From NCBI RefSeq assembly GCF_018139485.1, contig NZ_JAGSNF010000023.1, positions 1-64,000 of the forward strand: DNA of 64,000 bases, given 5' to 3'. Origin of the DNA: Phycicoccus avicenniae. Lineage in GTDB: Bacteria; Actinomycetota; Actinomycetes; Actinomycetales; Dermatophilaceae. Below are positions 41,887 to 42,945 of the stretch, in pieces. Numbering within the stretch: the stretch's first letter is position 1; each line of letters opens with the position of its first letter. Below the pieces are notes generated by a model. That model saw only the letters and a list, made by a program, of their open reading frames with translations, was not told the DNA's origin and ran no database searches. A program made the position numbers and the translations under genes.

Positions 41887-42945
41887 ATGGCCCGACGACG
41901 TGCCCTGGCCGCCGCCGCGACCGTTTCCGCTGCGGCACTTGCCGTCCCGATCGCCCCCGCCCAGGCCGCCGCGCCCTCGTACGTCGCCCTCGGCGACAGC
42001 TACTCCTCGGGCACAGGCACCCGCGACTACCTCGACGACGGCACGGACTGCCTGCGCTCCCCCGCCGCCTACCCCTCGCTCGTCGCCGCCGCCCGGGGGT
42101 ACGACCTGAACCTGCGCGCGTGCTCCGGGGCGGTCGTCGCCGACGTGCGCGCCGCCCAGCTGCCCGCCCTGTCCTCGTCGACGGCCTACGTCACGGTCTC
42201 CGTCGGCGGCAACGACGCGGGCTTCGCCGACGTCCTCACCGAGTGCGCGCAGCCCGGCTGGATGAGCGACTGCTACGGCGCGATCGACGACGCCCGCGCC
42301 TTCATCGACACGACGCTCCCGGCCCGCCTCGACGCCCTGTACGCCGACATCCGCGCCCGCGCCCCGCAGGCACGGGTCACCGTCGTCGGCTACCCGCGGA
42401 TCTTCAACGGTGAGGACTGAAACGCCCTCACGTGGTTCTCCCCGACGGAGGAGAGCCGGCTCAACGCGACGGCCGACCGGCTCAACGCGCTCACCGCGCA
42501 GCGCGCCGCCGCACGGGGCTTCTCCTTCGCCGACCCGACCTCCCGCTTCGTCGGGCACGCCGTGTGCGACGACCCGGAGTGGATCAACGGCCTGTCGTAC
42601 CCGATCGTCGAGTCCTACCACCCGAACTCGGCCGGCCACGCCTCCGGCTACACCCCCGCGGTGAGCCCGCTGCTCACCGGCGCCACCGTGACGGCGGGGC
42701 CGGCCCTGGAGCGCCGAGCGGTCAGGACGGCCCCCGCGCAGGCGGCGACGCAGCGGCAGTACGCCGCCCTCGACGCGGCGATCGAGCCGAAGCCCGTCGA
42801 GCCCGTCGACCTCCACGGCGCCGAGGCCCGCAGGGCCGCAGCCCGCGCCGGGGTCGACGTCGACGACCCGGCGAGCGTCGCCGCGGCCGACCGGCGGGCC
42901 GACGCCCGGCAGCTCGCGGCGCGGGGCGAGCGTCCCGTCGGCTGA
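41887..42945 (+). pseudogene. Secreted SGNH/GDSL esterase interrupted by an in-frame TGA at codon 178
   Basis: The reading encodes a 352-codon secreted esterase of the SEST-like SGNH family: signal peptide ending near AQA, block I GDSYSSG (Ser38), block III GGND and block V YHPNSAGH with the catalytic His. After VVGYPRIFNGED, codon 178 is TGA (42418-42420), then the same frame continues NALTWFSPTEESRLNA to a TAA-free end at 42945. In family members I recall, a Cys follows GED/GTD here, so a single C-to-A change (TGC to TGA) explains it. The 177-aa product would lack the catalytic His. AGGAG precedes the ATG. It may be a recent pseudogene; readthrough cannot be excluded. Confidence 0.8.
42434..42457 (+). 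other. Hairpin 13 nt after the in-frame TGA
   Basis: GGTTCTCC at 42434-42441 pairs with GGAGAGCC at 42450-42457 (eight pairs, one G-U) around an 8-nt loop. The loop begins 22 nt after the TGA, within the distance range known for bacterial SECIS elements. GC-rich coding DNA forms such hairpins easily, and no selenocysteine genes are in the window, so this is recorded without assigning a function. Confidence 0.35.

Follow-up and report, generated by a model that had tools for sequence, protein, structure and literature searches.

A secreted SGNH lipase/esterase gene with an in-frame TGA at a conserved cysteine codon is probably a young nonsense pseudogene

Introduction

Does a TGA that stands in the place of a conserved cysteine of a secreted esterase, with a hairpin shortly downstream, direct the insertion of selenocysteine, does it allow some readthrough, or does it simply break the gene? 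The locus lies in a window of 64,000 nucleotides (the whole stretch of Phycicoccus avicenniae DNA that was analysed; GC content 75.4%). Here we compare the codon across relatives, search the genome for the selenocysteine (Sec) machinery and examine the hairpin in orthologues that carry no TGA.

Results and Discussion

The esterase gene and its in-frame stop

Reading of the open reading frames gave exactly one internal stop in the plus-strand frame 41887-42945, a TGA at codon 178 (42418-42420), and the base directly 3′ of it is A. Otherwise the frame is open from the ATG at 41887, which has a plausible ribosome-binding site (AGGAGA) upstream, to a terminal TGA at 42943-42945, just as the preliminary description had it when it reported a single TGA with an intact frame on either side. 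The features of the locus are:

41887..42945, + strand: secreted SGNH (GDSL_2) lipase/esterase gene with one in-frame stop, 352 codons plus terminal TGA (frame, Pfam, orthologues, PDB alignment)
41887..42417, + strand: translatable part, 177 residues with Ser38, Gly81 and Asn109 and without the catalytic His (residue roles from the 5mal alignment and the available part of PMC10779480)
42418..42420, + strand: premature TGA at the conserved Cys codon 178 (frame, orthologue codons)
42421..42945, + strand: rest of the frame, core still conserved, the catalytic His of SYHP being residue 245; probably untranslated (Pfam, alignment)
42434..42457, + strand: 8-bp hairpin within the conserved stretch coding for WFSPxEESR, on present evidence no SECIS element (stem in 6/8 TGC orthologues)

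The N-terminus of the 177-residue part resembles a signal peptide, judged by eye. The read-through frame belongs to the Pfam family Lipase_GDSL_2 (PF13472), matching profile positions 1-177 with 85 bits against a cut-off of 32.9; the piece before the TGA alone scores 59.4 bits (profile 1-110) and the piece after it 24.2 bits (profile 116-177), the latter under the family cut-off. Two solved structures, PDB 5mal and PDB 4hyq, were matched over residues 30-260 and 28-259 of the query with 197 and 202 bits, and 4hyq is a phospholipase A1, from S. albidoflavus; both are SGNH/GDSL hydrolases. According to the available part of PMC10779480, 5mal is the extracellular lipase SrL of S. rimosus, and by alignment with it Ser38, Gly81, Asn109 and His245 of the esterase (blocks I, II, III and V; invariant across nine orthologues) correspond to Ser10, Gly54, Asn82 and His216. 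The read-through frame therefore holds the full set of catalytic residues and the translated fragment does not, His245 lying behind the stop. The earlier placement of the catalytic Ser before and the His after the TGA is correct by this alignment. The same part of that paper reports that His216Ala abolished the activity of SrL, and the 177-residue product should thus be dead.

Codon 178 in relatives

Among 12 genomes of the genus, the window's own (G000) counted, nine including G000 contain a close esterase orthologue, and none was found in G002, G006 and G007. The eight other orthologues are 67-74% identical, lack any internal stop and have TGC at codon 178, which confirms the earlier expectation of a Cys at this point. 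In the wider family, 103 of 186 genomes gave a match at E <= 1e-60, and the 62 rows of at least 478 bits were counted as close orthologues. Stops are listed for two of these 62: the window has its TGA, and G070 has a TAG close to the natural end (residue 340 of 344). For 31 of the 62 (30 fetched loci and G070) codon 178 was read directly, and the other 31 are known only to be stop-free. The family search flagged 11 rows with a stop; those read were the window, G070, G013 (stop at 324 of 325), the G000 paralogue and four genus paralogues, and the distant G088, G101 and G026 were left out.

For the reading of the codon, 113 loci (115 aligned rows) were assembled from the best 80 of 535 named relatives, 29 family loci and four extra stretches; among them are the locus of the window itself, its paralogue and seven genus orthologues entered a second time. 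Cys occupies the codon-178 column in 98 of the 115 rows, and in another 15 the column lacks Cys and a Cys lies at most a few residues away; 14 of these 15 rows come from records titled Streptomyces and mostly read 'GSC' (named genomes being the best 80 of 535). The remaining two rows are the window itself and one fragment that ends short of the column. Thus, within the 113 loci and the best 80 of the 535 named relatives, TGA at codon 178 is confined to the window, and the recurrence that would mark a selenoprotein was not seen. The check on relatives that had been proposed earlier accordingly returned no TGA, with TGC in 8/8 genus orthologues and TGC or another placement of the Cys elsewhere.

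Two forms of recurrent stop were considered and rejected. Nine more distant rows of the genus search carried the entry '1 TGA', and in all nine this is a terminal stop, placed where the domain of the homologue ends. Programmed readthrough across the clade was likewise dismissed, as the stop occurs in no relative read (best 80 of 535 named genomes).

The same genome also contains an SGNH paralogue (G000:C15:32909-33730; L002, L211) that is 44% identical, has a TGC-encoded Cys at the matching position and is intact, with no stop before its end; from its sequence, it is possible that it could serve as a functional backup for the esterase. As a separate observation, a metagenome-assembled genome of the Dermatophilaceae has its esterase homologue (L130, 1501-2519) split over two frames, and this gene may be broken or misassembled too.

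Conservation behind the stop

At columns that are invariant in the other eight orthologues the window has one change in residues 179-265 and two in residues 30-177, and mean dN is 0.142 in the former stretch versus 0.169 in the latter. GC3 is 0.944 before the stop and 0.977 after it. The window's branch is long, 0.27 before the stop and 0.37 after, and in both parts only G010 (L011) has a longer one. The C-terminal tail has six unique changes in the window versus 0-5 in the other orthologues, a slight and weak excess. The core behind the stop is therefore undecayed, which implies that the stop is young, that the base is wrong or that a full-length product is still made.

A synteny survey for in-frame stops (frameshifts lay outside its scope) used two relatives with 28 rows each and covered 39,539 of the 64,000 bases. 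Within this part no gene body other than that of the esterase is interrupted by a stop; three further stop-bearing places fall in 5′ extensions, before likely start codons.

Selenocysteine machinery and other means of decoding UGA

SelA, SelB, SelC and SelD are needed for Sec, and FdhA is the main selenoprotein, as stated in the available part of PMC1794560. The G000 assembly is a draft of 26 contigs, 3.54 Mb and 99.94% complete. In the family search of the 12 genus genomes SelA had no match in G000. The best SelB match there reached 198.8 bits (positions 1-262), under the cut-off of 242.25; all 12 genomes have a match of similar score and length, and judging from sequence it is presumably EF-Tu-like. 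SelD peaked at 42.3 bits (cut-off 125) and tRNA-Sec at 43.7 bits (cut-off 47), this last match being tRNA-Ser(tga). The set of selA, selB, selD and tRNA-Sec that a selenoprotein calls for was therefore not found in G000, and the earlier remark that no sel genes were seen now extends to the whole genome. Formate dehydrogenase alpha, the most frequent selenoprotein family of bacteria, also had no match in G000 at E <= 1e-80; 10 of the 12 genus genomes have one.

The genus itself is split in its use of Sec. Five of the 12 genomes (G002, G004, G005, G007 and G009) have clustered matches to selA, selB-like genes, selD and tRNA-Sec, and seven are without SelA or SelD over cut-off. SelA and SelD both exceed their cut-offs in these five, with a stray weak SelA match in G011. 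SelB does so in three (G005, G007 and G004), and in G009 (213.5 bits) and G002 (211.5 bits) it falls under 242.25 yet lies directly beside SelA. In these five the tRNA-Sec matches reach 62-72 bits. Counted by the cut-off of 47 alone, 11 of the 12 genomes have a match, six of them at only 49.6-51.1 bits and without SelA over cut-off. ARAGORN called tRNA-Sec(tca) in the sel clusters of G004, G005 and G007, the three that it was given (L097, G004:C8:112000-131900; L099, G005; L098, G007). Sel cluster and esterase occur together in G004, G005 and G009, and in all three the esterase codon is TGC. The G004 cluster includes a frame with an internal TGA (QARI-TGA-HSSTV), on the minus strand at about position 14085 of L097, which we take to be a formate dehydrogenase of the Sec type. 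In G007 the SelA match (L083, L085; G007:C1:3487685-3488931) is broken into two pieces that overlap and lie in different frames, an indication that selA of this genome is frameshifted or contains a sequence error.

An empty site of the sel cluster was sought in 58.5 kb of G000:C10. What matched there was the sequence next to the Gly-Cys-Val tRNA cluster in G004, together with one weak match (38%) from G005, and no clean empty site emerged. The absence of sel genes from G000 hence rests on the family searches.

A reassigned TGA or a suppressor tRNA was rejected as far as can be seen. All 41 tRNA genes listed for G000 have ordinary anticodons, with CCA for Trp and no UCA among them, in a listing that may miss a few given that only two Ser tRNAs appear, and TGA is the terminal stop in 4/4 neighbouring genes checked.

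The hairpin behind the TGA

The hairpin at 42434-42457 has an 8-bp stem (GGTTCTCC/GGAGAGCC) that encodes part of the conserved WFSPxEESR motif, and its loop starts 22 nt after the TGA. The 24-nt core has a folding energy of -14.0 kcal/mol in the window, and in the eight TGC orthologues the same core gives -12.1, -14.0, -6.1, -9.7, -12.1, -9.7, -9.3 and -5.4 kcal/mol. Equally stable 24-mers make up 83 of 9140 sampled in the window, and at this distance an equally stable core follows 2 of the 339 codons of the esterase gene, codon 178 itself counted; the stability of the core is locally notable. For the 48 nt behind the TGA, 2325 of 5814 sampled 48-mers are equally stable. A stem of at least 7 bp is kept behind TGC in 6/8 orthologues, and it is thus not specific to the UGA-bearing gene, as a SECIS element would be. 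Since the stem accompanies the conserved coding sequence under either codon, that sequence accounts for it best, and it would owe nothing to the TGA. Of the earlier account of this hairpin, its existence and position stand, and its link to the TGA finds no support.

Weighing the explanations

We consider it likely that the locus is a young pseudogene, formed by a recent single-base nonsense mutation in a secreted Ser-His SGNH lipase/esterase. A one-base change would have turned the conserved Cys codon 178 into TGA, and translation would end there with a 177-residue fragment that lacks the remaining fold and the catalytic His and is presumably inactive. The base would be real in the organism and the loss of the gene tolerated, since the gene looks dispensable (no close orthologue in 3/12 genus genomes) and an intact 44%-identical paralogue is present. 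A stop inside the domain of a gene that is intact in relatives is what a nonsense pseudogene displays, and the TGC of relatives together with the failure to find sel genes supports the nonsense mutation that had been the first choice from the start. Two observations count against it, namely the undecayed core behind the stop and a hairpin core that is among the most stable of the gene (2/339 codons). The main rival is an error of consensus or base calling, in which case the organism has a Cys codon and an intact gene. Equal conservation of the core after and before the stop, the single isolated substitution, the lack of any other gene body with a stop in the compared part of the window and the 26-contig draft all favour such an error; polished assemblies seldom hold substitution errors, and we regard it as unlikely.

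Leaky termination is more improbable again. Here tRNA-Trp would occasionally decode UGA-A, so that a little full-length enzyme is made that has Trp instead of Cys178. The A that follows the TGA is in its favour, UGA-A being prone to tRNA-Trp misreading in E. coli (PMC5289835, available part), as is the undecayed core. Against it, Trp cannot form the expected disulfide, all six Cys of SrL being in disulfides in the available part of PMC10779480, the stop is in none of the relatives read (best 80 of 535 named genomes), and such background misreading may occur at any UGA and bears no sign of a programmed event. Traces of full-length protein from this source are possible and would be background, with no support here for a function. 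A UGA-A throttle on a secreted hydrolase, under which termination prevails and the occasional ribosome goes on to produce a Trp178 enzyme still under selection, so that the core stays undecayed, deserves very little credence. Least probable by far, to the point of being negligible, is a role of the hairpin as a SECIS element that brings selenocysteine to UGA178. The conserved Cys position, the loop start 22 nt after the TGA and the locally notable core are consistent with it, but SelA is unmatched and SelB, SelD and tRNA-Sec are under cut-off in a genome 99.94% complete, the sel-bearing relatives G004, G005 and G009 use TGC in the esterase, the stem also lies behind TGC in 6/8 orthologues, and the Cys is, by analogy with SrL, probably a structural disulfide Cys and not redox-active. 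For this assembly selenocysteine is refuted, barring sel genes in an assembly gap. The preliminary description had kept it as an alternative, and this lapses with no TGA in the relatives read (best 80 of 535 named genomes), no sel genes and a hairpin common to TGC orthologues.

The preferred reading is of an ordinary kind, a gene broken by a recent nonsense mutation. Its main value is as a negative case: a TGA in place of a conserved Cys, followed by a hairpin at a suitable distance, mimics a selenoprotein, and that reading is removed by the comparison of codons, the search of the whole genome for sel genes and the occurrence of the hairpin behind TGC in orthologues. In a high-GC gene that encodes a conserved protein motif, a hairpin gives poor grounds for proposing a SECIS element.

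Comparison with known systems

Recent nonsense pseudogenes are a general kind in bacterial genomes, and the esterase resembles them in its single stop, its otherwise intact frame and its apparent dispensability alongside a paralogue. With bacterial selenoproteins, such as Sec-containing formate dehydrogenase, it shares a TGA at a Cys-type position and a hairpin downstream; unlike them, it sits in a genome where no Sec machinery was found, has no TGA in the relatives read (best 80 of 535 named genomes) and involves a Cys that is probably structural. Like SrL (5mal) and phospholipase A1 (4hyq), the read-through frame contains the catalytic Ser, Gly, Asn and His, and a Cys aligns with codon 178 in 5mal and lies close by in 4hyq. 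In contrast to both, the window's gene has a stop at this Cys codon and, like its genus orthologues, is longer at the C-terminus by a tail of some 90 residues.
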